Positions 27,786 through 52,600 of a stretch of 64,000 nucleotides of DNA are shown here, piece by piece (position 1 is the first letter of the stretch; every line of letters begins with the position of its first letter). Origin of the DNA: an uncultured Bacteroidales bacterium (GTDB lineage: Bacteria; Bacteroidota; Bacteroidia; Bacteroidales; P3); contig ONDE01000010.1 in NCBI GenBank assembly GCA_900316515.1, positions 1-64,000 on the forward strand. The letters run 5' to 3'. A program made the translations under genes and the position numbers. A model generated the notes under the pieces. That model had not been told where the DNA came from. It searched no databases and worked only from the letters and a program-made list of their open reading frames with translations.

Positions 27786-29144
27786 TTAACCCAGATTACT
27801 AGCGATACTCTTTATTAACTTTGAAAAACCGTCGGGAGTCATCAAGTCCACTCCCGAAAGGGGTTGACCCGTTATCTGCTCGAACGTACTCGTGTGGTAT
27901 GGTGCCGTAAGTCCATAACCGTTTGCCGCCACAGGAATGATTGCCTTGTTACCGAGCTGCGAAGCCATGCGCCACTCTCGGTTGTAGTAGTTGTCGGTCC
28001 TCCCTGCCGTGAGGTCCTCGGCGATATATGGCGTCAAGAGAGGCAGGAAGACTCGGCAGCGACCGATAGCATCCTGTATCATAGCATCGTAGTTGTCGCC
28101 GCCCTTAAGGCTCGAGTTGTCGAACCACACATCGAAGCCTGCCGCCCGCAGGCGGAAGAAGAGTTGCGTTGCCATCACACGGTCGTGGCTGCAGTACGAG
28201 AGGAACACACCGCCTTCACGGCGGCTCCTAATAATCTGCTCACAGAAGGGGTTCGACGGGTCGGTCGAGGTGAGCGACTCGGTGATGCTGTGCATGAATG
28301 CCGTAGCGTCGCCATGCGAATAGATTCGGTTACGCTCGAGGAAACTGTTGAGACCACGGTCGGAGTCGCTGTCCTTGTCGAGGGTGAATGCCACCTGTCC
28401 CTCGCGGAAACGCGAGAAGTCATGCTTCAGGATATACCAGAAGAAGCGGAAATACCAGTCTTCGAACTTGCAGCCGAGAGCAAGGACTTTCTTTGAGCGG
28501 ATGAACTTCATCAGTGCGTCGTTGCCGAAGAAAAGCCATTTCTCAATAATCTGTATAGCATCGTTGTCGGTTCGCACATAGTGGCGACTCTCGTCCTTCT
28601 CGGCCTTTCCGAAGATATAGATAAGTGTAGGCTCGCTGTAACGGCTGCCGTCACGGTAGGTGGCAAGGGAGTTGCGCAGGTCGTCGAGCGACCGCTTGTC
28701 GTCGATGCTCACCACGCGCAACCGTTCGCCCCATATCGTGCGCATCAGCGTCTCAAGGTACCCGTCGAAAGTCGTCGTCAGCACTATTGGGAAAAGGCGC
28801 GTGCCAATCATATCGCGCAACTCGGGACTCATGTCGGCAAGGTCGTAGCTGAAATCGTCGGCCGAGTTTAGGAGGTTGCGCACTGGGTCGACACCATTGC
28901 CCGAGTCGAGGGCAAGTTCGTTGAGGTCCTTGTAGTTGCGGTTCAGACTGCTGTTGAGGGCTTTCAACAGATACTGCTTTACGTCACCCGACGGCTCCTC
29001 GTCGCGGTTCATAATCACTTCGCTACCCACCACAAGCAGATAGTCGCCATTCATCACGTCGGTGACAAACTGCTCCTGGTCGAACATCGTTTCCTGTTGC
29101 TGCGACAGGCGTGCCGCAGTGTCGTCTTTAGGTTTGAATCCCAT
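27786..29144 (-). CDS. SIR2-like plus TIR domain protein, putative effector
   Basis: 452 residues, cytoplasmic. Residues 25-285 look like a SIR2_2-type domain: DYLLVVGSEVIM, IVLTTTFDGYLETLM (the TTNYDxxLE motif), LIYIFGKAEKDES where active members have a His-Gly pair, and VLALGCKFEDWYFRFFWYIL (the GYSLxDxDFRxLW motif). The missing His and the altered glycine loop suggest loss of NAD hydrolysis there. Residues 310-410 are a TIR domain (GGVFLSYCSHDRVMATQLF, GFDVWFDNSSLKGGDNYD) with a Glu in NREWRMA (390) where TIR NADases have the catalytic Glu. It is the last gene of the five-gene cassette; TIR NADase output with the SIR2 part as ligand site is inference. Confidence 0.8.
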   Translation of the reverse strand: MGFKPKDDTAARLSQQQETMFDQEQFVTDVMNGDYLLVVGSEVIMNRDEEPSGDVKQYLLKALNSSLNRNYKDLNELALDSGNGVDPVRNLLNSADDFSYDLADMSPELRDMIGTRLFPIVLTTTFDGYLETLMRTIWGERLRVVSIDDKRSLDDLRNSLATYRDGSRYSEPTLIYIFGKAEKDESRHYVRTDNDAIQIIEKWLFFGNDALMKFIRSKKVLALGCKFEDWYFRFFWYILKHDFSRFREGQVAFTLDKDSDSDRGLNSFLERNRIYSHGDATAFMHSITESLTSTDPSNPFCEQIIRSRREGGVFLSYCSHDRVMATQLFFRLRAAGFDVWFDNSSLKGGDNYDAMIQDAIGRCRVFLPLLTPYIAEDLTAGRTDNYYNREWRMASQLGNKAIIPVAANGYGLTAPYHTSTFEQITGQPLSGVDLMTPDGFSKLIKSIASNLG

Positions 29145-29193: not shown

Positions 29194-29805
29194 CTAAAAA
29201 ATGCTTCCCGACATAATTAAAAGCAGAATGGTCGCCACCGGGAAAAGCAGATAGCACCAATTTACCAGACGGCAGCGGACTGCCCACCGCGCCATTGCAT
29301 GATTGAATATATTTTGGTCATCCGCATTCAAAGCCTCATCCACCTTTCTTGAAGTCTTGATAGTCACCAGACCGATGGCCAGAAATGCCACAGCTGCAGG
29401 AAGGAGAACAAAAACAAGGGGGAACTGGAACTCATAGTTCTCGAAGAACAACAACCTTACAGGAACGCAGATCACGGCGACAATGCCGACAACCAGCATC
29501 ATCCATGCCACGCGACGTTTTGTCTTCATAGTCTTGCCTATCAAGTAGCGCAACCGATAATCCACCAGCAGGGTGCTGTCGGTAGCGGTGTGCCTTTTGT
29601 TTATAGACCGCAATATGGCTATTCCTGCAACAAACAGCATCACCCATACAGGGATTAATATCAATGCCAGATTTGCTCCTGGCCAACGGTTATACTTCGC
29701 TACAAATGCGAATAAAGTAAATGCTACGGCCAAGGCCATGCATGCATACGCCAAAACGCGTTTTATCATCGATTTATGTATTCCTCTATTCATGGCACTC
29801 ATCAA
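29194..29805 (-). CDS. Multi-pass membrane protein of the STAND/TIR cassette (203 residues)
   Basis: 203 residues with about five hydrophobic helices (near residues 15-37, 43-66, 97-120, 126-148, 176-200). Not a named family. It carries YNRWPGANLALI, a WPG-N hairpin like the one in GldL-type Bacteroidota membrane proteins. Its second half aligns by eye with the 133-residue protein encoded just upstream: TMKTKRRVAWM against TMKSKRRIGWV, TIKTSRKVDEALNADDQN against TTSKATLEALEINNQS, and FNHAMARWA against FDEALSKWT. The ATG overlaps the stop of that gene by four bases. Codons and bases are clearly more AT-rich than in the housekeeping genes. Confidence 0.75.
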   Translation of the reverse strand: MMSAMNRGIHKSMIKRVLAYACMALAVAFTLFAFVAKYNRWPGANLALILIPVWVMLFVAGIAILRSINKRHTATDSTLLVDYRLRYLIGKTMKTKRRVAWMMLVVGIVAVICVPVRLLFFENYEFQFPLVFVLLPAAVAFLAIGLVTIKTSRKVDEALNADDQNIFNHAMARWAVRCRLVNWCYLLFPVATILLLIMSGSIF

Positions 29806-30203
29806 TTAAATAACACTCCGAAACAAAGATACAGAGACAAGCACATCAAAAGTATATACCCACCTAAGGCAAACAAGTCGCGCATAGTCCATTTGGAGAG
29901 GGCTTCGTCGAACGCCGACTGGTTGTTTATTTCCAACGCTTCGAGTGTAGCCTTCGATGTGGTCAGCGTGAGGGTGCTGATGGCCAGCAAAGCAACATAT
30001 AATGGAATGCCAAGATACATTATATTACCACCTGGCCAATGAAATTTTAAAAAGATATACGGCGATACCACAAGTGCTATCGATACAAACAGTGCCACCC
30101 ATCCAATACGGCGCTTGGACTTCATTGTACGTTCTATCGACTGGCGAGTGTCGTTGTCGATTTTCAATCTCTTGTTCTTCTTTGTTATAATGTTATTCCC
30201 CAT
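29802..30203 (-). CDS. Small membrane protein of the STAND/TIR cassette (133 residues)
   Basis: 133 residues, three hydrophobic helices (near residues 34-56, 62-82, 110-132). A basic N-terminal 30 residues (ITKKNKRLKIDNDTRQSIE) would face the cytoplasm. It has FHWPGGNIMYLG, again the WPG-N hairpin, and a soluble loop with EALEINNQSAFDEALSKW that matches the loop of the neighbouring 203-residue protein, so the two are likely paralogues. Region 29800-30230 is about 40 percent GC by eye. No function is known to me; membrane partner or pore of the cassette is a guess from context. Confidence 0.75.
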   Translation of the reverse strand: MGNNIITKKNKRLKIDNDTRQSIERTMKSKRRIGWVALFVSIALVVSPYIFLKFHWPGGNIMYLGIPLYVALLAISTLTLTTSKATLEALEINNQSAFDEALSKWTMRDLFALGGYILLMCLSLYLCFGVLFN

Positions 30204-30231: not shown

Positions 30232-32277
30232 TTACAAATAGTATTGATAACCTATGATTGCATTATTGTAATCGTGGAAAACAGATGGCATGAGAAGATA
30301 GCGCAATGAATCCTCATAACTCCACGTCTTTCCCTTTGCCCACTCCTTCGCCATGCTTATCAAATATTCATATGGTGGGTATGGCAAACTCAACACCCTT
30401 CCTGCACTGTCCCTCAGGTAGATAGAGAGAGGACGAATATCCACAAACCCTCCAGCTCCCGACACATTGAATTCAACTGGGCAGAAACCGTTCAGCTGGT
30501 ATGTGGCCAACGTTTGCATGCCGTTCCCTGTAGTGGAGAGCCTCCTCGACTGTACAGACGTCTCTTGGTTTGCTGAAGTAAGGATGCGCGCCACAGTGTC
30601 TATCTTGAGTATTCTGATCAGAGAATTGCTCCAGATGCTGTCATCACCCTCTATTGTCAGTATGCTGTCATTCCTGCTTATGTCAAAAAGCGTTACTCCA
30701 TCAATATAATACGATGCATGAAACAGGATATTTCCGTTCTCCCTTATCTTGATAAAGTTGTCCGAAAATAATTCTACGGTATCAAGGCTGACTTCTTGCA
30801 CAGCAAACAACTCTGCAAAATCAGGGTGCTGCTGCATGGCGTTACGAAGGGCTGCTTCGGCGGATGTGGTGTATGTGTGACTTTCATCGAATTCACCCCA
30901 GTCACTAGTATATACCGCTTCTATAGCCAGTCGCAACGCCAGGTCGACATCGCCGTTGGCCAGTGCCAACTCCGATTGGGAAGCATGCAGCAAACTGGAA
31001 TATCCCGACTGGACAGCATCCATCCGTCTCAAGTTGTTCATGGGCTTTAAGGTAATGCCCACAAGAAGACAAAGCAGAAGGAAAACCCCGATTGCCCACA
31101 GTATCACCTTTTGGCTGCTGCGGCGCTCGCGTATCTCGACCAGCGGGTCACAGAACGAGTCGTGGATAAGCTCGATACGGTAGTCTTGGCTGTTGTTGCC
31201 CACCGAGGTGCGCTGCAATATCTTGTTTTCGCCCTCGAGCAGCCTGTCGGCATCATTCACGTGCAATCTGAAATCGCTCTCACTTATCGAATTGCGGCGT
31301 CCGGCGCTGTCGACCATGCTGTTCTCAATATAATTGCGCTCCTTCCGCTTCATACCAGCGGTAGCCTCATTGTAGAACTGGATGATAGGATTGTCGCGCA
31401 TGAACTCACCGAGCATCTTGAGCGTTATATGTTCTGCTTCTGTGTGCTCCATCTTGGCATACAGACGGCTACAAAGCAACGAGAGTAGATTGGTGCTGAT
31501 ACTATCGTCCTGCTCGCTGCGCGCCATGTCTATGACCGTCTCGGCTATATCCTGCGCCTCGCTTGCATTCAGCACATCCTTGCCTGGCTTGAGCACCACA
31601 CTGAGTGCATTCTCATGGCTGAGGGGCCGCAGGCGGTAGCGGCATTTCTTCATCTCGTCGAGGTAGCAGCGGTCTAGGCTGTCCTCGAGGAGGTAGAGGT
31701 CGTCCTCGCGGATGGAAGCGAGGAAGCGGAAGTTGTAGTCATAGCTCTCGCCCAGCGAATGCGAGGGGTCCATCATGAAGTGGATCTGCCGCAGCAAGGC
31801 CTCGGCCTCGTCGCGGCGACTGCGGAACACCTCCTCGAACTGGTCGAACACCAGCACCGCGAAACGCGTCTTGCCCTCGCCGTCCACAAACCTCGTCCGT
31901 GCAAACCACGCCCACAGCCACTGCTCGTCCTGATCGTCGGCAGGCAGCGCCACAGTGTCGGCGGTCTGCATCTCGGCCACCTGGGCAAGGCGGCTCACGA
32001 CGCACTGCTGGAAGGTGGTGTCTATAGCCTCCATCCCGAGGCGGATGCTCACAGGCAGATAGCCCATCTCACGCAGCCGCGGGAAGACGCCAGCGTTGAG
32101 CAGCGACGTCTTGCCGGTGCCGCTCTTGCCGTAGAGGGTGCAGAAGATATTGTCGTCGACCAGCGCAGCGAGGTCGTAGCTCTCGTTGTCGCGTCCACAG
32201 AAGAGCAGCGTGCTACCTGCCGCAGGGTCTTGGTATGAGGCCAGTCCGGCCCAGGGGTTCTGCTTCATCGTCGTCAT
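30232..32277 (-). CDS. Membrane-anchored STAND NTPase (nSTAND1-like)
   Basis: 681 residues. Residues 7-380 match the nSTAND1 pattern: NPWAGLASYQ start, FCGRDNES, Walker A GKSGTGKTSLLNAG at 50-63, Walker B VLVFDQFEEVF at 141-151, a winged-helix part and RIELIHDSFCDPL before the membrane. One helix follows (391-410). The outer part begins with LANGDVDLALRLAIEAV, as in STAND proteins that carry WD40 propellers, but only about 230 residues remain, less than a full propeller, with beta-strand-like segments (LFDISRNDSILTIEG). STAND proteins are ATP-driven switches that oligomerise on sensing a trigger. It lies 14 bases after the RyR-like gene; its sensing side would be outside the inner membrane. 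Confidence 0.8.
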   Translation of the reverse strand: MTTMKQNPWAGLASYQDPAAGSTLLFCGRDNESYDLAALVDDNIFCTLYGKSGTGKTSLLNAGVFPRLREMGYLPVSIRLGMEAIDTTFQQCVVSRLAQVAEMQTADTVALPADDQDEQWLWAWFARTRFVDGEGKTRFAVLVFDQFEEVFRSRRDEAEALLRQIHFMMDPSHSLGESYDYNFRFLASIREDDLYLLEDSLDRCYLDEMKKCRYRLRPLSHENALSVVLKPGKDVLNASEAQDIAETVIDMARSEQDDSISTNLLSLLCSRLYAKMEHTEAEHITLKMLGEFMRDNPIIQFYNEATAGMKRKERNYIENSMVDSAGRRNSISESDFRLHVNDADRLLEGENKILQRTSVGNNSQDYRIELIHDSFCDPLVEIRERRSSQKVILWAIGVFLLLCLLVGITLKPMNNLRRMDAVQSGYSSLLHASQSELALANGDVDLALRLAIEAVYTSDWGEFDESHTYTTSAEAALRNAMQQHPDFAELFAVQEVSLDTVELFSDNFIKIRENGNILFHASYYIDGVTLFDISRNDSILTIEGDDSIWSNSLIRILKIDTVARILTSANQETSVQSRRLSTTGNGMQTLATYQLNGFCPVEFNVSGAGGFVDIRPLSIYLRDSAGRVLSLPYPPYEYLISMAKEWAKGKTWSYEDSLRYLLMPSVFHDYNNAIIGYQYYL

Positions 32278-32291
32278 TCTTTTTGTTTTGT

Positions 32292-34412
32292 CTACTGCCG
32301 TACCACGGCAGCCTCACTGTCAATCATATTGAAAACGGTCTCCAATGCCAAGAAGTCGTAGGCCTGCTTCTCGTAGGTAAGATTGTCCCAGTCAGTTAGG
32401 CAGGGATGTGTGCGGCGCAGATGATCTTTCTCGGCACCGTAAGTATAGCCTTGCAGCTCCATGGCAGCATTCCAGCGCAGGTGCTCGCAGACAGCCACGT
32501 TGCAGAGCAACACCTCAACGGGGTCGGCAGAGGGGCTGGTTGGATAAGTGCCGTTATGGGATTCGGCATAGCCAGTCACGCGGTCAAACACCTGCACCAT
32601 ACGCTCTTGGTCGGCGTCGAGTTGCCTGCCATCACGACGATTGGCAAGTGCCTGCTTAACCTTTTCTTCGTCGAGACCTATAAGTTGCAGCTTGGTGAGA
32701 CCATGCAGGTAGTTGCGCAGGTTCTGCCGTGCGGCCGAGCGGTGGGCATAGAGATCGTTGAGCGACAGCACTTGTTGCGGCACTGCGGTGGGAACAGTCC
32801 CTTCGAGCCGTGCCGACAGGCGGCTGTAGGCCTCGTTGAACATCAGGCCACCCCGCAATGCCTTGTCGATGATGATGTTCTCGTAAGAGTATATCTGAGA
32901 GTCCTCGCCGAAGGGATGCAGCATCTTGCCGTAGTCACCGTATCCGTCAGCTATGGCCTCCAGCATGTGCGTCGACTGCGGAGCACGGAGGAGGAGATAA
33001 ATACCGGGCATGACATTGTTCTTGCCTCCTGTCTCTTTTAGCCAGAGGCGCAATAACGATACCGCGATGCGGATATTAGCCTCGTCGTTGCCTGTCGCCA
33101 CAACGACATAGTTGAGTCTTGCAACGATCGACGACAGCCACTCCCAATAGCCGTTGCAGCGGTCACTCAGCGGTTCAAAGACGATATCACCCTGCATGGT
33201 GGCATGGTCTCGGCACCATTCCCCACGACGGGCCTCAATCTCATAATCGACGACATGACACGTGAACGGAGCCCTCTTGTGTTGTGCGTTGGGGAACGCA
33301 GCGGTCTCGTAGAGGAACGAGAGGGCCTCGCAGCCAGTGTGGCCAAAGCCCACCACAAGGGCTTCGAACGGCTCCTGCACACGGCCGGAGTGTATCTCTT
33401 CGACACTTCTCGGCAGATATCGGATGGGCTGTGCCTTAGCATCTGTGCGGAGCATCCTGACGGCAAGGGTCGCAGGGTCTACCAGACACCACCCGCTATG
33501 GTCTGCGATGATGAGGTTCTCCTCCGATTCGTCGGCAGAGACATACACCTCGATATTCTTCCCTTCGAAGACCTTGTCGGCCATCAGCTGCGTCGCTGCT
33601 CTGATATTGCTCTCATTGTCGTTGTCGAAGAAAAACATGCGCACCTTTTCATGGCAATATACAAGCGTGCGGAGGTCGCCGAGGTCTATGTTCTCAAGTA
33701 TGTTGGCATCGGGCGCCGACGTCAGCAGGGATGGGTTCTTGTCGGCATTCAACAGCACATACTTAACCCCCTTGAGGAGTTTTATGTACTCCATTTTATA
33801 TGGGAAAAAACCGAAGATGGTTTCAAGGCTTACTGTGAAGCTCTCCTGACTACCTTCGGAAGGCAGGTCGACGATGACGTTGTGACACTTCTCGTTACTA
33901 GCCGACTTCTGGCTCTGCAGGAAACCGATAGACGAGGAATTCAGTCCTATAAAGACATTCAGCGTCCGTTTGCGAGGGAACAGCGTGTAGTGGAAAGTAC
34001 GCATATAGGACTCGAAGCGCTTCGAGAGCATCCTTACGGCGAATATTGCAGTAATTAAGAGTGCTACAACCTGCAGGAATGCAAGCAGGAACATAAAGAC
34101 ACCGTTGGTTGTCAAGCCGCCCAGTTCCTGAAAGAAACTGCCACCCACAAACATACCTATCGACGCGAGGAACGAACGTACAAGCACTGAGAAGACAGAA
34201 CCATCGCTACCGACCATAGAGAAAGCAACAAAATACATTATCCATCCGTTCAAGAGTGTTGCGAGAGCTGCGGTAGGCAACAACTTGTAGCGGTACTCGG
34301 GAGACTTCCCTATCCTGAGTGCTATACCCACAATCAAGTGGGCAGTCGCATAGAATGCCACCGCCGCTAAGGCGACACAAAAAACAAGGTCTACATTGGA
34401 CAAACTGTTCAT
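32292..34412 (-). CDS. Membrane protein with two Rossmann-like domains and C-terminal RyR-like domain
   Basis: 706 residues. Three to four helices lie in the first 130 residues, with no clear signal peptide. Two Rossmann-like segments follow: one from TLNVFIGLNSSSIGFLQ (about 150) and one from FEALVVGFGHTGCEALSFLYE (about 349), the second with a clear G-x-G-x-x-G and a VVATGNDEANIRIA strand, as in TrkA-N/RCK and CASTOR/POLLUX-like proteins. Near the end (about 640-700) HLRWNAAMELQGYTYG, THPCLTDWDNL and YEKQAYDFLAL fit the RyR domain of ryanodine receptors and bacterial homologues. Such combinations suggest a nucleotide-gated membrane sensor or channel. It is the first gene of the cassette, directly after a good promoter. 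The overall family assignment is inference. Confidence 0.75.
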   Translation of the reverse strand: MNSLSNVDLVFCVALAAVAFYATAHLIVGIALRIGKSPEYRYKLLPTAALATLLNGWIMYFVAFSMVGSDGSVFSVLVRSFLASIGMFVGGSFFQELGGLTTNGVFMFLLAFLQVVALLITAIFAVRMLSKRFESYMRTFHYTLFPRKRTLNVFIGLNSSSIGFLQSQKSASNEKCHNVIVDLPSEGSQESFTVSLETIFGFFPYKMEYIKLLKGVKYVLLNADKNPSLLTSAPDANILENIDLGDLRTLVYCHEKVRMFFFDNDNESNIRAATQLMADKVFEGKNIEVYVSADESEENLIIADHSGWCLVDPATLAVRMLRTDAKAQPIRYLPRSVEEIHSGRVQEPFEALVVGFGHTGCEALSFLYETAAFPNAQHKRAPFTCHVVDYEIEARRGEWCRDHATMQGDIVFEPLSDRCNGYWEWLSSIVARLNYVVVATGNDEANIRIAVSLLRLWLKETGGKNNVMPGIYLLLRAPQSTHMLEAIADGYGDYGKMLHPFGEDSQIYSYENIIIDKALRGGLMFNEAYSRLSARLEGTVPTAVPQQVLSLNDLYAHRSAARQNLRNYLHGLTKLQLIGLDEEKVKQALANRRDGRQLDADQERMVQVFDRVTGYAESHNGTYPTSPSADPVEVLLCNVAVCEHLRWNAAMELQGYTYGAEKDHLRRTHPCLTDWDNLTYEKQAYDFLALETVFNMIDSEAAVVRQ

Positions 34413-34468: not shown

Positions 34469-34499
34469 CAAAATTAAGTAAATATTAACAACCTCACAA
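34469..34499 (-). promoter_or_regulatory. Promoter of the five-gene STAND/TIR cassette
   Basis: Minus-strand TAATTTTG (34469-34476) and TTG (34497-34499) are 20 bases apart; a leader of about 50 bases precedes the first gene. No other promoter-like motif is evident between the five genes. Confidence 0.6.
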
Positions 34500-34539
34500 A
34501 TTTTTAACATTTATAACCTGCTGTATGGCTCTTTTTTTG

Positions 34540-40618: not shown

Positions 40619-43600
40619 TTATTTCTTAATAACTTTCTGTATTGTCACCTTCTCGCTGGTGTGTATCCTCAGGTAGTACACACCCGTCGAGAGACGGTCA
40701 AGGTCAACGGTCAGCTTGTCGCCTGCAGCGTCAACGTAGTCGGCCAAGCGGCGACCCTCGTTGTCGTAGAGTTCGACGTGCTTCAGCTCGTCAGCCTCGA
40801 CAGTCACATAACTCGTGGTGGGGTTGGGGTACACCTTCACGGTGCTCACCCTTGTCACCTCGGTAACACCCTGCTTGGCGTTGATGGTCAGGTTCAGCGT
40901 CACCACACTGTCGCAGCCGAAGCTGGTCGTCAGGGTATCGCTGAGCACTATGGTCACAGCGCCGGCGCTGTCGAGGGTGTTGTGCATCAACGTCGTCTCG
41001 GCAGGCGTCAGGTAGAAGCCATAGCCCGAGTAACCGTCGCCCTCGTCGATGCTGTCGCTCACCGAGGTCGTGGTGCTGTGGTGCACAATGACATTCAGCG
41101 CCGTGGTGCTGTCGATCATCAGTATCGAGTCGATGATGTTGTAGCTGAAGCTGGTGTCGACGGTGTAGTACACGCCTTCCCACTCCACGGTGTCGCAGTT
41201 CTCAAGAGTGATCGTGTTCTCCACGGGGATCATGTCGGGATTGCCGAACACCGGGTAGCCGTGGTTGGCGTTGACAAGGTCGCTGCGCCAGGTCTTGTAC
41301 ACCTCGCTGCCTTCGGCGGCGTTGTGCTCGTTGACCCAGATGTTCAGCACGCGAGTCATGTTGTTCACGCCATACACCTGCTGGTCGATATTCACCCTGT
41401 TGCCACTACCCTCGAAGGAGGCCGTGGTGCTCTCGCTGGCACCAGAGGACATCTGTCCGCTGACGCGCTTGGTGGAGCCATACTCGTAGTAGTTGTTCTC
41501 GGCACGTGTGCCGTTGTTCAGCACGGCGCCTACAGCACCATCGGTGGCACTGCCGGCAACCATACCATATACATAGTTGTTTTCTATGATGGTATTGGCC
41601 GACTGGCCCACGATGCCGCCCACACGCTGCGAGCTGCCATCGCTCTCAAGGCGTACGTAGTTGTTACGCACCGTCGACATGTCGCCGCTCTTGGCTTTGC
41701 GGAACAGACTCTTGCTGACAGGTGCCGTACCGTTGAGGTAACCGGCCAGACCGCCGACATACAGACCGCTCATACGGCTGTCGTTACGGGCATGGTCGTT
41801 CACGATGGACGACGACGTACCGTAACCTATAACACCGCCGCTGTAGACAGCGTCACCGACATACTTGGCCGAGATGCTCGAGTTGGTAATGCGGTCGTGA
41901 TCCGACTCACCAATCATACCGCCGCTCACATAGTGCGTCGTCAGTATGGTGGTGCTGTTCGTCGAGGGACCTTCAGCATCGCCCTCCACCACACAGTTCT
42001 GCACCTGCGTGTGCGTCGAGCTGGCTGCCAGGGTACCCACATACACGCTACCGCGTGCCATGGCACCGTTCAGCTTGATGCTGTATACGCGTGCCGAGTC
42101 GAGGAAGCCGAAGAAGCCCACATTGTTCATCTCGGGTTCATTCAGGATGATGTTCTTGATGGTCACATACTGGCCGTTGGCAAGGCGTGCCGTATCGGCA
42201 ACATCCGAGCTGACGCCCTGGAACCATCCGCGGAACGGATGCTGACGGTTACCCACGGGGCTCCACTTGTAGTACTTCATATCGTATCCGCCATCCTTCT
42301 GGTGGAGGTATACTTTATTGAAGAAGAATTCGCGCGCCTGCGTGAGGTTCAGACCGTTCACCACGCTGATGAACCAGGCCAGACCATTCTCATTGTAGAT
42401 GTGCACGTCGCCGTTGTAGGTGGTCACATAACCGGCTGCCGTCGTGCTGCTGCCATCGGGCAGTTCATACGAGGCCACCGTCGGACGCGATGCATAGGTG
42501 TAAGTGTTGTCATAGGCCACACCACCCTTGGCAGGTGTGTTGATATGGTTCTTCCAGTATTCGCGCGGGCTGTAGTAGGCCACCACGTCGCGGTTGGCGG
42601 TGGGCACCACGAAGGTCGCCGTGGGCGAATAGTAGGGGTCGAAGTCCCACATCACAAAGTCGGCCACAGGCTCTGACGGCGAACCAGCATACTGCGGCGT
42701 GGTGGCGAGCTTGATCACCTCACCCTCGCAGAAGTAGACGTCGCTGAGCGAATGGTGGTTGTCAACACCGTCGCCATTGTCGAGGAAGACATAGTAATCG
42801 GACGTCGGGTTCAGCTTGTCGTATACCACCGACTGGATGGTACCGCTATAGGGGCTGGCCCACACCTTGGGAGTAATCTGCACGGTCTTGTACTGACGGG
42901 TAGCGCGTGCATGGTGACTCGTGTCGGTGTCGGTGAATGCATTATCGACAGTGGTGGGAGCATCGTCGTAGCGGCTCAGGTCTAACTTCACAGGATTGTC
43001 AGCGATGCTCTTGGCCAGTGTGATGTCGATATTCTTGTACAGGGTGCAGTTGCCCGAAGCATCGGTGGCCTGGACCTTGAAGGTGATGTTCTTCTTCTTC
43101 TCCAAGGTGCCGAGGGTGATGTTCGAAGTAATCAAGGTGTCGGCAATGGCACTTCTGATACCACTGTAGTTATTGTTCTTGACCTGCTTCTTGATTTCGT
43201 TGCTGGTGTACAGGGTGGTGAACTCACGGGTGTTCTCACCGCTCCACTTGTAGGTGTAGGGGTAGAAGCCGCCCTGCACACGGTACACGATGGTGTCGCC
43301 GCCGCTCGGGCAGTTCACATTGGCCATGCAGTTGTACTCAAGCACATCCTTCGGCAGTATGCCGTCGATGAACGGCGTGTTCGAAGCAACCTGGTGCTTG
43401 AAGGTGGCACAACGCTGCAGGTAGATACGCTGCACGTTGACACCGCCGTTGTACATCACGAAGTAGCCGTTATCCGACGAGAAGTTATTCTGGTCGATAG
43501 CCTCGCCCAGGTGAGTACCCGAAGCCTGGTACACTATCTGGATGGTGTCGCGCAGCTCTTCGTCAATGTCGGGGAACCACTTGCTGACACCGATACGGGT

Positions 43601-46600
43601 ACCGGCAGGCAGCGTCGAGGAGAAGTAAATCATGTCAGACCTCGAGTCAGAGGTATCCTGGACGGCAACCGAGGTGTTGGGCTCGCGACCCAGCAGCACG
43701 TTGGCTCTGACTGCCGAAGAGGTGTCGTAGAAGTCGTAGCGCAACAGCCTGTCTTTGCCATCGAATTGCTGCACATACTTGTTCCAGAAGCGCTCCATGT
43801 TGCTGCCGCAGACATAGTTGTCTATGACCTTCATGGAAGTGATGGAGGCAGAGGCCAGCAACTCGAAGCGGCCACCGTTCATGAATATGGCACCGTTGTA
43901 GGGGTGTATCCTCCACGGTGTATTGTCGAGGTCAGTGTGCAGGAAGTCGTTGTTGACGATGGAGTCGCTCAGGTTGTGGCGCACGGTCACGTTGTTGGTG
44001 AAGTTCAGCGTACCATTGGGTCCAACGTTGATGGCACCGTACTTCATCATGTCATCGCCCTTGTAGCCGTTGTAGTTCTGCTCCACGGTGACACCGTTCT
44101 GCAGCGACACCACAGCGCCGTCGCTCACGGCTATGACGGGACCGAACACCATGTTGGTATCGGCATACTTCTGCTTGCCTCTGGTATTGTCGAAGACACC
44201 GGGGATGGGGTTGTACACAGTGTCGTGGTTGTCCCAACCGTTGCCGGGACCATTGTAGCCCTCTTCGTGGTATCCGTTCACAGCATCGTAGGTCCTGTCG
44301 GGCTCAATCTTCGACAGCAAGCCGCCGCGGAAGTTGATGAAACGTGCCGAGAAGCTGGCACCGGAACCGCTCACATTGATCATCGTGCCACGATACACGC
44401 CCTTCTCGCCGGGCAGCTGGTGGTGGTGACCGGAGTAGCGGATCACAGGCACATCCATATAGTCGAAGCCCTTGATCAGCAGCGGGTCGCCAGGAGTGAT
44501 GTTCACCTGGTCGAGCACACACAGCACGTCGCCTTCCTCATAGATGCGCTCGTTGAAGGCATCCTTGATGTTGGTCAGGTACAAGTTGGGCGACTTACCG
44601 CAGCGGAGCTTGAAGTCGGCTTCGTTGGTGAAGATGTTGTCAACGCCGCTTGTTCCGATACGGTCGGAGTAGTATTTGAAGTTGTGTCCATAGAGGGTCG
44701 GGAAACCACCGCGGTCGATATGGTCTGCCGAAGCAACATAGATGGTGTCGCCGACAGCACGGCTCTTAACATATATTGTAATGGTGAATTCCCTACGTTC
44801 GTTCTGCGGGTTCTGGGCAATAGTGGCGGCACCGCCCTTATAGCTCTTGAAGGTCATCACCACCTTGCCTATATAACCCTTGCCGTCAACCTTCTCGTAC
44901 ACATGGTTGCCGTCGAAGTTCAGGTTCACATCCAAGGCTGCCTCGCCGTGACCGTCGAGCTCGCCAATCAATCGGCCGTATTCGCCAGGCACCGTGACAG
45001 CATTGTGGGTGTAGTGGTTCGTACCGGCACTGATCTGGTGCACGCCAGTCTGGTTCGTGACGCTTACCAGGTCGAGCGGAGTCGTCACACTGAGGGTGTG
45101 CCAGCCGTTACCGGTATTCATCGAGTTGGTGATGTTGTCCGACGGCTTGATGGTCATACGGAACGTATTGCCCGTACCGATAACCGAGGCCGAGTCATCG
45201 GTCAGGTTGAACCAGTCGACGGGGTTCTCCGTCGAGGTAGTCCAATCGCCGTTACCGGCTTCCGTGCCGCTCTTGGTCGTCGGGGCCCACTCAACCTTCG
45301 TCAGGTACAGCTCGCGGCCTTCAAGGGTGGCGGGCAGAACCAGCTTACGCGAGAAGATGTTGCTGCGGCCTTCGTTGTACATGGCAAGCACGTTGTGCTC
45401 CATGTTGCTGAAGTCCTCCAGGATGGTCGAAATGGTTATCTGCACATTGATGGGCATCAACAGGTTACTGTCGAGCCACACAGTGTCGATGGCCGGTGTC
45501 AACGGGTCGCCGTCGACCACAGCACCGTAGTTGTGGCCGGGACCTTCGGGTGCGGAGTAACCGTCACCGTCATAGTGGGCACGCTTGGGCACTGCCACAT
45601 ACTCGTCGAAGGTGAAGTTCACAAAGCCCACCAACGTATGGTTGAGTTCGTTGCCGTAGGTCACATAGATATCCATCTCGGGCAGGGCGTTGGTAGCATC
45701 GCTCACCTGGGCCGACGAGAAGTTGCTCCACGAGTTCACATGCTCGTTACCCGTCACCACAGTGCAGCTGTCCCAAGGACCCACCGTCGTTACAGGTGCC
45801 ACAAGCATACTGTCGGTATTGTGGCCTGTGGGTATTCTCTTGAAGTTCTTGCCCGAGGTGAGGACCATACCGAAGTAGGTACCGGGGTTGTTCACAGTCA
45901 TAATCACCTCGCGGGTGGGATCGGCAACCGACACCAGACGCATCGACGAGCTCTCTTCGGTCAGCAGGTCGCTACCGTCGGCAGGGTGCCAGGTGTCGTC
46001 CATGCCTTCCCAGGTCTTGGGCATGTATGCCTCGTCGGTCATACGCATCTCTTCGTTCTCATCGGTAATCACCACACCCGTGCTGCCGTTAATCTTATAG
46101 AAGTGGCCGGCAGCGGTGGGCGGGAGTTTCAGGGTCGAATGAGCCATCGAGAAGTTCTTGGCATCGCCGTTAACAATCTTGGTGAACGGCTTGTCGTCGA
46201 CCTCCTCGTTCTTGGGGTTACTGTGAGCCTGCACAACGGCAAAGCGGATACGCGAACCCTGACCCAGCGACCACACACGGTACGAGGTGCTGTAGTTGTA
46301 GTAGGGATATTCAGCCGAAGAGCCGGAACCCTTGGTCCATGTAAGAACAGGACCGCTCGACTGTTGAATCACGTACAGCGAGTCGCTACAGGCAGGCATG
46401 AAGCCACCGTCGTCGCCGTTCGTGCTGCCGTACTTGGGAGCAGCAGTGATAACGGCGTTGGTACCGGGCTCTGCCATGATGTATGCATAGCCGTATACAT
46501 GCGAGTATTCATCGTTCTCATTGACGAAGTCGATGTTGATACCATTGTGCATCAGCAACGCCGGCAACATGTGGTCGACATCGGTACGGTTAATCGCCGA

Positions 46601-49600
46601 CAGCTGCTGGCACACAGTACCTGTACCGCCGCAGGCGTGGCATTCCGCATTGTTCGAGAAGCAACGCTCGAACTGGGCATTGTCGGTGAGGTCCAGAGGC
46701 CATCCCTCTTTGTAGTATCTTGCAGTGTCGATGTTCGAAACCGTTCTGGCAAGCGACAGGATATTGTAACCCTGGGTATTCAGTGTTCCGATACGGTTGA
46801 TGGCGTATTCACGGCTCACGTATGCCGACACAGCGTCGCGGTCGCCGTGGTAGTGGATGGCCGTATTGTGCAGCCACAGCTCCGAAGCACGCTGTATCGA
46901 CAGCAGCTCCTTGACGGGCATACAGTTCGCAGCATCCCACTGGGTGCTTCTCGGTGCGCCGTAGTTACGCACGTCGATACGGCTCTTCAGGTCACCGCCC
47001 TTGGCCGAGGTACCCGAACCGATAATGTTCTTGGCGATACCCATCTTCTTCAACGTCTCCTGGTCTTCGTTCATGAAGGTGTTGTAGCCGTCACCGTCGA
47101 CGATAATCCAGTTGTTGCCGCCGAAGAAACCTTCTGCCGTGTAATCCGACGAGCCGGAGTTCTCACCCCAGTTGGCACCGCCGTAGATGGAGTTACCTAT
47201 CAGCACGTCGTTCAGCGTCAGGGCCGCCACCTTGCCGTTCGTGACACCGGGACGGAACACCTCGTAGGCTGTCGTGACACCGGTCACGGGGTCGCGCCAC
47301 ACCTCGCAGCTGTCGACAGCAGCGATACCGATATTGACATAGGTCGATCCGAAGACGTTACCCAGGTATCCGCCACCGTAGATGTTGGCGTTCACCGTAC
47401 CGCCGGTCACGTTGATTATCGACGAGGGACGCTTGGTGGTCATGGCGCGGTAGTCGCTCACTGCCACTCCATGGCAGGTCTCGTGCCAGTAGCCATCACT
47501 GCAGTTCTCCGAACCGCCGTAGATGTCGTTCACCGTACCGCCCTGCATGTTCACCATCTTCAATCCGTAAACAAGTCCGCCGCCGTCAGCCACACCGGCT
47601 GCACCGCCGAAGACGTTCTGCGTCACCGTACCACCCTTCATGTTTACCACGAGGTAGCTGTAGCGCGTCGGGTCGTCGAAGGGCAGGTTGTTGACGTCGT
47701 AGTCCGATGCCGAGGTGATAGCCGTACGGTTGGTATCGGCCTCCAGACGACCGTCGAGGTCGTAGTAGAGAGTACCGTCGTTGTTACGGCGATAGGGGAA
47801 GCTGGTACCCATCTTGCCACCGCCGTAGATATTGTTGTTCACTATGCCGCCCTCGAAGTCGATAGTCACCTTCTGCGTGTTGGGCACATAGAGGCGCTTC
47901 GGGCGCGGATACAGGGTGCCAGCGCCGTCGTGGTCTACGAAGTTGCCGGCATAGCAGCCGGTGTCGTAGCTCGTCGTCGGATAGTCGCCGTTGCCGGCAC
48001 CGTATATATAATCGTATTTACCACTTATAATTCTGATGTTGGCTTCGTTCACATAGCCCGTGAAGTCGTTGCCGCCGAACACCTTCATGGCAGTCTTGCT
48101 CTCGCCTTCGGTGTTACCGCGCATCACCACGTGTGTGGTGCCGTGCACTGTCGAGCCCCAGCAGCCGCCATAGATGGCCTCGAAGGGCTTGTCCCATGTC
48201 TCGAAAGCTTCGATATAAGTGTTCTCCACATCACCGCCACGGCCGCCGCCGTAGGCGCGTGCCGTGCTGAGGTTTGTAGCATGGTGCAGGTGCACCTTGG
48301 TGTAGCCGTCGCCGTCGTCGGTAGAGACCACATTACCTTGGTGCTCGGCATTCAGGTCCTGCCAGTTTCCTTCACCACCGCCGTACACCGAGCCGTTGAT
48401 GGTCAGGTCGTGGCATCCGCCACCCTCACCCTCGCACTCGCGGTCGTTCACGTTGACGTAGGTCAGTCGGCAACTACCCAGTCGGCCGCCACCGTACACG
48501 TTGTCGTCAATCTGGCCACCCCACAGGTTGAGGGTGGTGCTGTCCACAAAGGGACGGCCCGTGGTACCGGTAGCCAGCAGATGGGCTGCATCGTGCGGCT
48601 GGCCGAACTCATACACGTTGAACTCGCCGGGGTTGATCTCGTCGTAGTCGTAACGGCCGTTCGAACCGCCGTAGATGTGCTGCACACGGCCACCGCTGAT
48701 ATCGATACGCGTGTTGCCGTGCACCGTGCCGCTGATATCGTTACCGCCGTACACATAGTTGATACCCTTGCCGTCGGCAGTGTTCGAGTTGCGGATATCC
48801 ACATAGGCCATATACTTCACGTCGGCCTTGCGGCAGCCGCCGAAGATAGCTTCTTTCACAGTCACGTCGGCGCTCTCCACGCGTACAAAGGTCGACACGC
48901 TGTCCACCTTGATGCCGCAGTAGGGGTCGGCAACAGCCTTACGGCCGCTCATGTTACCCGAGTTGCCGCCGCCGAACACATAGTCCACAGTACCCTTTCT
49001 CAGGCGGATGTCAGGCACGCACTGGTCCATATTGTCGCGGTTGTTGCCACCGAAGATGGTCCCCACGGCATATACATCGGGGGTGGTGCAGTTAAGCAGC
49101 ACCACGACCTCGTCGCTGACACCGACGCCGTTACCACCGCCGAAGACGGTGTCAATCATGCCGCCGGCAGTGTTGATGTCGATGAAGCTCGACTTCTGGA
49201 GGGGTCGGTTGTCGACGGCCTTGTCCTGGCACACGGGCTCGAAGCTCGAGTATTCGGGACGGCTGCCGTCGTAGTTGTAAGCACCGTTACCGCTACCGTA
49301 CACATTGTTGATGGTCGGCGTGCCTTCTATACGCAGATAGGCCGAATGCGTAGCGGTGTATTTAGGATTGCCTAGGTCGTCAACACCATCCTCCTTGTTC
49401 ATGTGGGTGATATTGTCGGTGGCCATGAAGTCCTCGGGAGCCTTGCCCTCGTGGACGAGGTTGTTCTCGTAGTCTCTCACCTCGGGGATGCTGTAGGCGC
49501 CGAAGCTCGCGATACTACCCATACAGTCGTTACCGGTGTAGAGCGAGCCCTTGATAGTACTGGTACTCTGGATAAAGGTGTAGCTCAAACCGTAGATGGA

Positions 49601-52600
49601 CGACAGGTAACCGCCACCATAGGCGTTGCCGTCGCCATAGCCGTGGTGCTGCTCGCTACCCACGGTGCCGCCGTTGAACTGGAAGTGCACCGAGCCCAGC
49701 TTGCTGCCCTTGTTGCCGCCGGGCAGGCGCAGCTGGCGCTCACCGTTCCTATAGGCCAGGCCATTGGCACCCGTACCGGTGAAGTCGGCACTGTCCTGCA
49801 TGAAGATGCGGTTGATGGTACCGGCCTCGTCAAAGCCGATGTTTGTCATAACGCCGCCGCCATAGGCCGAGTAGAGCACCTTGGGCTCCTTGCCCGCTAT
49901 GTTGGCGTGGATATAGAGGTTCGAACTGTTCTGCGTAGGAACAAGCTTGCCCACGAACTCGTCGTATGGATCACGGGCTTCGTTGTTGCGGTCCACTAGA
50001 GTCTCGCCGCCCTCCATGTAACGCTCGCCCCACAGGGGGTTCTCGTCTCTAGGCTCCAGGCGTTCGTGGCAGTGGTAGAAACCATCGCTGCCGCCATACA
50101 CATTCTGCAGCACCAGGCTTTCGCCGTCGAGCACCACATAGCTGCCCTCGCCGGTCTCCGTTCCCACGTCGCCGCTGATATCGTTACCGCCATGCACTTT
50201 GCCGAAGACACCGCCACTGAGCCACACACCCGTCGAGCCCTTCACGTTGGCCATACGGCATCCGCCATAGACCTGCTCGCAGAGGATGCGCGACTTGCCA
50301 TAAGGTGCCAGCGAGCCTTCCATGGCAGCGTTGGAACCAGGAGCATGTATAAAGCAGCTGAAGACCTCGGGCCACTGGTATTGCCAGCCGTCCATGGCGT
50401 AGGCAATACGGCTTGCCATATCGGGCACATCGCGCACCAGACGCATCGAGCGCATGTCACCGGCGTTACCGCCGCCGTACACCACGCCGATACCGCCAGC
50501 CCACAGGTTGATACGCGAGATGGTGTTCATCGGGGCGTTGTTGTTGCCGCCGAAGAAGGCACGCACATTATATCGTCCAATGCCCAGGTTGAAACGTCTA
50601 GGCGAGTGGTTGGCCAGATTGTCGTAGTTGTCCCACTCGTGGCCACTGCCGAGCGAGGGGTCGTACAACTTGCGGTGGTTGGCCTCGAGTTCCACGAGGT
50701 TGCCCAGGGTCCACGGCTGGGGGTGTTGCACCACGTCGCCGGCCGCATGGGCCACACCTTCGTAGGTGCCGGCAGCCTTCCACACCCATTCGCGTGTAAT
50801 GCTGTCGTTCTCATAGATGAAGTTGTCGCCAGTGCAGTACACCACACCGACGGGCCATTCCACCGAAGCGCGGTTGCCGCCCAAGAAGCATGTGTCGACC
50901 ATACCGCCGGTGATATATACCTCTGCGCGCGAGCTCTCCACCAGGTTACCGCCGCCGTAGACATAGCGGATACCCCAGTCGCGGCCATAGCCCTTGAAGT
51001 AGGTGTTGTTCAACTTGTAGCCTGTATATTCATGTCCTGTGGCACCCTCAAATGCCGTGGCGAAGGAACTGAAGTCTGCGTCGCCAGGCTTGGGGGCCAA
51101 CTTGGTGCCGTTGATGTGGATGACAGTCTTGGCTGTCGCAGCAATGCTGCCGCCGTAGTTGTTGCCACCGAACACAGCGTAAATCACACCGCCATGCACC
51201 ATAATGCTCGAGGCCATCTCGGGAGTGGCAGCATCAATGCCGATGAAGGCGTTCTCGGCACCGCCGAACATGGTGTCGATAAGGATGTAGTCATTGTCAG
51301 GGTCATTGGCCACACCAACAGTGATATTGGCTTTCTTGATATAGGGCACAGTGCCGTTGCCATGCTCACCGTCCTCGTTGTTGTCAACGTCATTGGGGTC
51401 GCTGTACAGCGGATTGTACACAAAGAAGTTGGGCACCACTCGGCGGTCGACGCCGTCGGCATCAGGGTCTTCGCCGTAGTGGTCGTACTCCCAGTTCCAG
51501 TGCAGACAGGCTGTGTCGTTGGGAGTGATGTTGTCGTAGTCGACGGCGTTGCATGCCACACCGTGCAGGGCGGCAGTGCGCTCGCGCGGAACATAGCCCC
51601 ACGGGTACACCTCGCCGTTGAAGTAGTAGCTCTGGTACCCCAGGCTCGTCTTGCCGTAGTCATAGGGGTATATATATCTGCTGCTGGTACGGTCGTAGCC
51701 GAAGTTGATACCGCGGTAGGTATAGAAGCCGCAGCCGCCGCCGTACACATAGCCTATGTGCACCTTGTGGTCGGCATCGGTCTTCGTGGTACCCAGCTGT
51801 ATCGTGGCACCGTCGGCGCCCTGCACCCAGCCGGCGATATCGTTACCGCCATAGAGGGCGTAGATCGAGTCGCACGAGTGCACCGTCACGTTGGTGTTGC
51901 CACCCACGTTGGCCATACGGCCGCCGCCCACCACATAGCCACGCACCACAGGAGCGTTGGTGGCATAGGGCATCGGGGTCTTGTCGACAGCGTGGCTTAT
52001 GTTGATGCTGACAGTCTTGGTCTCGGTGGTACCGTTGGTGTAGGTCACCTTCACCGTCAAGGTCGCCTGGGCACCTGCCGGAGGCACACTGACGCAGCTC
52101 ACCGTAATCGGCGAGGCATCGTTGGTCTCCTCGGCGCTGAGGCTCAGATAGCGCTTGGCCGAGTTGCTCAAGGTGTAGTTAACCTTCGAAATCACCAGGT
52201 CCTCGTCATAGGTGGCGGGGAGGTCGTTGTGGCGGGCATTGTCGTAGAAGTAGTAGTAGCGGTAGGTGGGGATACCGGCGCTACCGAAGGTTTCGGTCTC
52301 GCGCTCGCCGTAGTCCAGGTGCAAACCGTAGCGGTAAACCTCCTGGCGGTATTCGGTATAGGGAGGACGGATATGGGCCTGGTAGATGCCGCCGGCACCG
52401 TCGGTGAGATCCATCACGGGCGTCGCCGTGGCACTCTGGCCGTAGCGCAGGCTCGAGGCGCCGGTCTCGTTATAGGCGATACCCAAACTCACCAGACCCT
52501 TGTCGTCGGGAATGTTGGAAATCTGCTTCACATATCCCGTCACCTTCACGGGCATATACAATGCACTGTTACCGTTGGGACGTATGTAGTTGATGGTGCC

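Follow-up and report, generated by a model that had tools for sequence, protein, structure and literature searches.

RCK-type channels, RyR domains and signalling by TIR enzymes are each known, while the literature searched contained no channel with an RyR sensor that occurs time and again together with TIR enzymes. A candidate for such a protein is encoded in the stretch of DNA analysed here (the window), i.e. positions 1 to 64,000 of the forward strand of contig ONDE01000010.1 (assembly GCA_900316515.1) from an uncultured Bacteroidales bacterium. An intact open reading frame (ORF) of 706 codons runs from 34412 to 32292 on the minus strand and is the first gene of a five-gene cassette that also encodes a SIR2-like–TIR protein. 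We consider it somewhat probable that this protein is a ligand-gated tandem-RCK channel with a C-terminal RyR sensor, acting as the membrane effector of a TIR signalling cassette.

Several described systems share parts of this architecture. In plant channels of the CASTOR/POLLUX/DMI1 type, two tandem RCK domains come after a pore in the membrane, an order like the one predicted here, and their gating rings match the predicted fold of the window protein with Z values of 15-17. CASTOR has four transmembrane (TM) segments, the last two of which are predicted to form a pore, and is Ca2+-selective (PMC6697748), whereas the window protein has three TM helices plus a pore-like helix and an extra C-terminal RyR domain. 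Identity to CASTOR and DMI1 is 8-10%, no Castor_Poll_mid hit was obtained in Pfam at E<=1, and membership in the CASTOR family was rejected given the absent profile and the different TM count. An earlier note on this DNA, made from the sequence alone, had likened the protein to CASTOR/POLLUX-type RCK channels, and this resemblance is borne out by the tandem-RCK fold. Among GsuK, TrkA, KtrA and Slo, GsuK is the best full-length fold match, but the window family has no K+ filter motif, carries an RyR sensor and is linked to TIR genes. Thoeris encodes a TIR enzyme (ThsB) together with a separate effector (ThsA) bearing a nucleotide-binding sensor, and its type II effector disrupts the membrane (PMC12948488). 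Here, the sensor is RyR instead of a SLOG or macro domain, the effector is RCK-type, an nSTAND1 gene is part of the cassette, and the five cassette proteins gave no PADLOC hit to ThsA at E<=1. RyDEP, a soluble phage evasion protein that cleaves cyclic ADP-ribose (cADPR) signals and whose homologues sequester them (PMC13232231), shares the RyR fold and four identically spaced ligand residues with the window protein, in which the domain instead forms the C-terminal end of a membrane protein from a bacterium, with TIR genes alongside. Animal ryanodine receptors also carry R12-type RyR domains on a membrane channel; unlike them, the window protein has RCK domains where those receptors have their cytosolic assembly, and one RyR domain instead of paired repeats, and no pore similarity was detected between the two. 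The parts of the window protein are as follows.

32292..34412, minus strand: membrane protein of RCK type with an RyR tail, 706 aa, encoded by the cassette's first gene (ORF, Pfam RyR, AlphaFold2 model, fold matches)
34311..34397, minus strand: N-terminal extra helix, residues 6-34 (model, hydropathy)
34212..34295, minus strand: outer helix of the pore-like unit, residues 40-67 (model, VIA-align of the N-terminus)
34149..34196, minus strand: pore-helix-like segment, residues 73-88, ending in F88 (model, alignment)
33981..34103, minus strand: inner helix towards the first RCK domain, residues 104-144 (model)
33417..33965, minus strand: first Rossmann/RCK domain, residues 150-332 (model, fold matches)
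32802..33368, minus strand: second Rossmann/RCK domain with GFGHTG, residues 349-537 (model, fold matches, alignment)
32295..32522, minus strand: C-terminal RyR (R12-type) domain, residues 631-706, with the pocket H644, W647, H669 and D686 (Pfam, profile, alignment, model)

The RyR domain was recognised by PF02026 at E 4e-5 in the translated protein (residues 638-692; 24.2 bits, under the curated cut-off of 27.4) and at 28.0 bits, above that cut-off, in a six-frame search. A profile of the 70-row family alignment matched solved RyR domains with a best E of 2.6e-22 (a bacterial/human chimera) and RyR1 itself at 2.7e-8, confirming the RyR-like end proposed in the earlier note; a match of the same profile to TRPV6 (E 0.08) was treated as chance. 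The predicted structure gave a weak Foldseek match to the RyR chimera 6uhi (E 0.20, probability 0.98). In RyDEP, H75, W78, H100 and D117 bind 2'/3'cADPR (PMC13232231), and H644, W647, H669 and D686 of the window protein keep exactly these intervals (+3, +25, +42). Together with E643 they are invariant in 12/12 rows, comprising the window protein and 11 homologues from a whole-protein search. The conserved pocket supports the role of ligand sensor that the earlier note had suggested for the protein without naming a ligand, and the linkage to TIR genes points to NAD-derived nucleotides as what is sensed.

Two Rossmann-like domains had also been claimed, with GFGHTG in the second. By sequence this assignment failed (Pfam TrkA_N, E 0.039), and it was the predicted structure that settled it. 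AlphaFold2, run on the monomer with the 70-row alignment, gave a model of the whole protein with pLDDT 91.1 and pTM 0.87, in which the Rossmann blocks mostly exceed 90, are weak around residues 181-210 and are joined to the RyR domain by a helical stretch (551-618). Foldseek ranked GsuK first (E 4.6e-7), followed by the gating rings of CASTOR (1.5e-4) and DMI1 (1.8e-4), with Slo channels also among the fold matches. VIA-align gave Z 16.9 for the DMI1 ring (4.2 A, 336 residues), 16.8 for KtrA, up to 16.2 for TrkA and 15.3 for CASTOR, while the superposition on GsuK covers residues 37-516 at 15 A overall. Tandem RCK Rossmann domains are present by all three approaches. The reading in the earlier note thus withstood the check it had proposed, by profile hits to RyR or TrkA_N and by fold, with TrkA_N as a sequence match at E 0.039 only. 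GFGHTG corresponds to residues 355-360, and its outer glycines are kept in 81/83 (G355) and 78/83 (G360) family rows.

The membrane part is where the earlier note hesitated, finding too few N-terminal helices to be certain of a pore. A pore is likely. The segment 73-88 ends in a phenylalanine (F88) that is F in 68/70 rows, and is followed by a short helix (94-102) before the inner helix. Folded alone, the N-terminal 150 residues reached pLDDT 88 and superposed on the MthK pore with Z 7.3 (2.8 A, 90 residues), a Z range that the tool calls common for helical bundles; 40 of the 50 VIA-align rows shown were P-loop channels and the top row was an unrelated helical bundle (Z 8.8). Together with the Foldseek result given below, these findings lift the earlier doubt about a pore only in part.

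The connection to TIR signalling was followed across 80 loci, the best 80 of 114 relatives from one scan of genome contigs, with up to 10 kb fetched on each side. Genes were home-made longest-ORF calls (a caller of the same kind missed a 457-residue SIR2-like–TIR frame in L162), and TIR genes were called with a home-made TIR profile, yielding 69 including that of the window, 68 of which match Pfam TIR_2. In 35/80 loci a TIR gene belongs to the same-strand run of the RyR gene, and 42/80 have one when all of the fetched DNA is counted. Of the 305 run partners, 52 (17%) are TIR genes, as opposed to 16 (2.4%) of the 658 other genes in the same loci; the odds ratio is 8.2, with a Fisher p of 4e-15 that is nominal because genes and loci are not independent. 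At L057, from the cultured species Xylanibacter muris, two TIR genes lie at a distance of 3-4 genes. These TIR partners fall into 9 clusters and 23 singletons, which indicates that the RyR–TIR pairing was re-made repeatedly. In a tree whose 77 RyR proteins represent Bacteroidota, Bacillota, Spirochaetota, Pseudomonadota and Fibrobacterota, 40 carry the label of a TIR gene within five genes, and this label is scattered, with 20 changes, at least 16 of them forced by well-supported branches. SIR2-like–TIR homologues (E<1e-9) occur in 10/80 loci and nSTAND1 homologues in the same 10.

Pfam models were also run, as a second sample, on 198 genomes belonging to the order. RyR was found at 17 loci in 16 genomes (from 21 RyR rows, after removal of one that scored below the cut-off and contained an internal stop, and after merging of same-locus rows), while TIR_2 gave at least 200 matches in at least 76 genomes. 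At least 7 of the 17 RyR loci, including the window's own, lie within 15 kb of TIR_2, compared to 0.14-0.29 expected by position alone. The family profile was applied to ten congeners, in two of which RyR and TIR genes are near neighbours. In G422, about 8 kb on one strand encode an RyR protein of 301 residues, an RCK-like membrane protein of 654 residues, a TIR fragment, a SIR2-like–TIR frame of 457 residues and nSTAND1. In G420, the RyR protein has 307 residues and the RCK-like membrane protein 664, and the distance to a TIR gene, which is on the opposite strand, is about 5 kb. By eye, H..W is also present at the C-terminus of each of the two RCK-like proteins.

The other genes of the cassette are listed below.

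30232..32277, minus strand: nSTAND1 NTPase, 681 aa, one predicted TM helix (Pfam nSTAND1 E 2.6e-22, TM prediction)
29802..30203, minus strand: small membrane protein, 133 aa, paralogue of the 29194..29805 gene with 33% identity (ORF, comparison, hydropathy)
29194..29805, minus strand: small membrane protein, 203 aa, paralogue of the 29802..30203 gene (ORF, comparison, hydropathy)
27786..29144, minus strand: SIR2-like–TIR protein, 452 aa, TIR at residues 304-452 (Pfam TIR_2 1.8e-16, SIR2_2 5.1e-7)

All five genes are tightly packed on the minus strand, with the RyR channel gene in front. Gaps of 14 and 28 bases precede the nSTAND1 gene and the first small membrane gene, the two small membrane genes overlap by 4 bases, and 49 bases separate them from the SIR2-like–TIR gene. 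A candidate Bacteroidales promoter, TTTG-N20-TAATTTTG at 34469..34500 (minus strand), lies upstream, as read off the sequence. Neither small membrane protein matched a Pfam family above its cut-off, and a SLATT identity for the 203-residue one was rejected (Pfam E 0.58, NCBIfam E 0.14).

The last gene supplies the presumed signal producer. Its TIR domain contains the catalytic-type Glu, in a column that is Glu in 69/69 TIR calls including the window's; this Glu has a catalytic role in TIR enzymes. In the SIR2-like part, a Thr stands opposite the Asn that KomC has in its TTN motif, with TT[T/V] in 11/11 aligned family members, and FG is found where sirtuins usually have HG. An active SIR2 NADase was judged unlikely given this loss of the Asn. 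With the TIR Glu kept and the SIR2 Asn lost, the alignments make TIR the likely active enzyme of the protein.

The flanking genes encode RsgA and MarC (Pfam), with 6,792 bases between them in the window. Both genes were found in 24 other genomes of the genus, and they adjoin in six of these (G400, G402, G404, G411, G415, G421; 13-42 bases from match end to match start), while in the other 18 they lie on different contigs. Of the 31 genus genomes, two others contain a clear SIR2-like–TIR match (33-37% identity), and two more match weakly in the TIR part. This layout and the patchy matches are the pattern of an acquired accessory cassette inserted between rsgA and marC. Any match to the window protein was found in 25/393 genomes of the order, many to the RyR part only.

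Under the mechanism that we favour, the nSTAND1 NTPase would sense infection and switch on the SIR2-like–TIR protein, whose TIR domain would turn NAD+ into a signal of the ADP-ribose type, with a cyclic isomer of ADPR as the likeliest product. This signal might occupy the RyR pocket (H644, W647, H669, D686), whereupon the RyR domain would move the RCK gating ring and open a tetrameric, ion-conducting pore. The resulting ion flux would halt the infected cell, making the channel a putative anti-phage effector. Computation provides the RyR domain, the RCK fold, the pocket residues, the TIR linkage, the TIR Glu, the lost SIR2 Asn and the accessory insertion, while the tetramer and its conductance, the ligand, the direction of gating, the part played by nSTAND1 and defence itself are inferred.

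A number of observations weigh against this proposal. In the wider family, the pocket H, W, H and D are kept in 82, 82, 81 and 79 of 82 rows with a letter, but the full score of H and W is partly selection because the pattern that retrieved the 80 loci contained both of them, unlike H669 and D686. R12 domains bind AMP-PCP or ADP in crystal structures (PMC12627627), so that the pocket is no proof of cADPR, and in RyDEP the ligand residues double as catalytic residues (PMC13232231). Regarding the pore, it is drawn from a monomer model, the isolated TM part had no significant Foldseek match, a TVGYG-type K+ selectivity filter is present in 0/70 rows, and column 93 after the pore-like helix is D in 58/70 rows and F93 in the window protein. 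As for the linkage, 45/80 loci have no TIR gene in the run and 38/80 none in the fetched DNA, and the TIR label is more clustered on the tree than chance would have it (shuffled mean of 26 changes, 3/500 shuffles as low as observed), so that the loci are not independent. The window is itself part of the second sample, which overlaps with the 80 in at least two loci (G020=L084, G107=L108), and PADLOC matches are confined to the TIR part of the cassette.

If the TIR domain were instead the executioner, i.e. an nSTAND1-activated NADase that depletes NAD+, the RyR channel might read falling NAD+/ATP or rising ADPR as a secondary or protective response in ion balance. NAD+-depleting defence effectors are well known. 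Thoeris is an example (PMC12948488), R12 domains are binders of adenine nucleotides (PMC12627627), and GsuK structures were solved both with NAD and with ADP. The many different TIR partners, with their 9 clusters and 23 singletons, nevertheless fit a shared signal better than a shared depletion, and the signal-binding residues are strictly conserved, for which reasons we hold depletion to be unlikely. The catalytic pair H75/D117 of RyDEP, present with equal spacing as H644/D686, raises another option, namely that the RyR domain is a membrane-tethered RyDEP-type hydrolase or sponge which limits TIR signalling and gates nothing. This seems improbable to us given that the domain is fused to a channel-type RCK assembly, that six of eight other RyDEP homologues tested bound the signal without cleaving it (PMC13232231), and that the separate RyR genes of about 100 residues in 26/80 runs are better candidates for such a function.

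A third alternative is that the channel serves ion or osmotic homeostasis and responds to ordinary nucleotides, its nearness to TIR genes reflecting no more than that both collect in genomic islands. TrkA/KtrA and GsuK, the fold relatives, are of the transport type, and 45 loci have no TIR gene in the run. Against a homeostasis channel of this kind stand the patchy spread across the order (25/393 genomes), rsgA and marC adjoining without the cassette in six congeners, and the excess of TIR among run partners (17% vs 2.4%) within the same loci, and we regard it as improbable. The signalling channel with an RyR sensor is the reading we retain. If true, it would add an ion-channel effector class to TIR immunity. 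Moreover, it would open RyR gating by NAD-derived signals to direct testing in a small membrane protein from a bacterium, which has a single RyR domain and is encoded next to the presumed maker of its ligand.

A broader version of this idea, tentative and rather doubtful at present, is a complete prokaryotic cADPR–ryanodine-receptor axis, in which a TIR-made cADPR isomer would open RyR-tailed RCK cation channels, stand-alone RyR proteins would terminate the signal and RyR proteins behind sigma-like genes would serve as transcriptional readouts. In animals, cADPR triggers Ca2+ release, although its action on ryanodine receptors has been disputed, and TIR triggers Ca2+ influx in plants; such an axis would, if true, be the bacterial counterpart of both.

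Stand-alone RyR proteins of about 100 residues are often encoded beside the channel gene; the 80 loci contain 32 such genes, L035:16394-16726 among them. They keep the RyDEP H, W and D in 32/32 and the second H in 26/32 cases, which makes them candidate cellular signal terminators or sponges. Further run partners among the 80 loci are RyR on a longer protein (14), TPR (14), SIR2-like–TIR (8) and PrsW proteases (7). A sigma-like gene occurs in 10/80 runs, each time followed by a RyR protein of 312-375 residues; the label of these genes (c6) was given by eye, and Pfam gave no family. At L034:8031-9699, the sigma-like gene precedes a protein with an anti-sigma-like N-terminus (by eye), a weak Peptidase_C39_2 and a strong RyR match. 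The pair of sigma-like and RyR genes suggests nucleotide-controlled transcription. Among the 24 PADLOC families (E<=1e-5) matched by 110 of 212 non-TIR, non-RyR partners, there was no CD-NTase, Cas10 or other maker of a signal. Four c4 genes had been considered as DUF4062, an idea given up when the one tested (L088) had no such Pfam hit.

Among the papers listed in the searches, only PMC13232231 was seen to deal with RyR domains of bacteria or phages. A 2015 paper in Nucleic Acids Research on nucleotide-centric conflict systems reportedly may discuss prokaryotic RyR domains, and a RyR–TIR link may already be in print. The literature searched offered no role for a bacterial, as opposed to a phage, RyR domain, and among the matches listed for RyR joined with TIR, SLOG, Thoeris, RCK or operon there was no bacterial RyR membrane protein; the word RyR is absent from PMC9503650, PMC7159879 and PMC13174449.

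Variants of the architecture were seen at several loci. TrkA_N and RyR occur in one polypeptide at L012 and L020, both above Pfam cut-offs, and at L014:40-3161 a SLOG (LSDAT_prok) plus RyR protein, with two nucleotide sensors on one polypeptide, adjoins a TrkA_N membrane protein. A second family of RCK-like membrane proteins (L162:4635-8080, L163:1155-4078, L165:7693-9678) has a C-terminus that is RyR-like by eye (H..W, H, D) and matched no Pfam family in the two proteins tested; in two cases it lies beside a separate RyR protein of about 300 residues, with TIR genes nearby. L099 and L100 have nine and five TIR-bearing ORFs, respectively, some of them short, around a RyR channel gene. On the tree, L063, L069 and L075, from metagenome-assembled genomes labelled Clostridium, Clostridiales and Lachnoclostridium, nest inside Bacteroidales, either by transfer or as mis-binned contigs. 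A scan of viral contigs with six short peptide patterns confirmed no copy of the window protein. Elsewhere in the window, a single ORF of 4,267 residues (40619-53422, minus strand) probably encodes a giant secreted repeat protein with, by eye, a C-terminal sorting-type domain.

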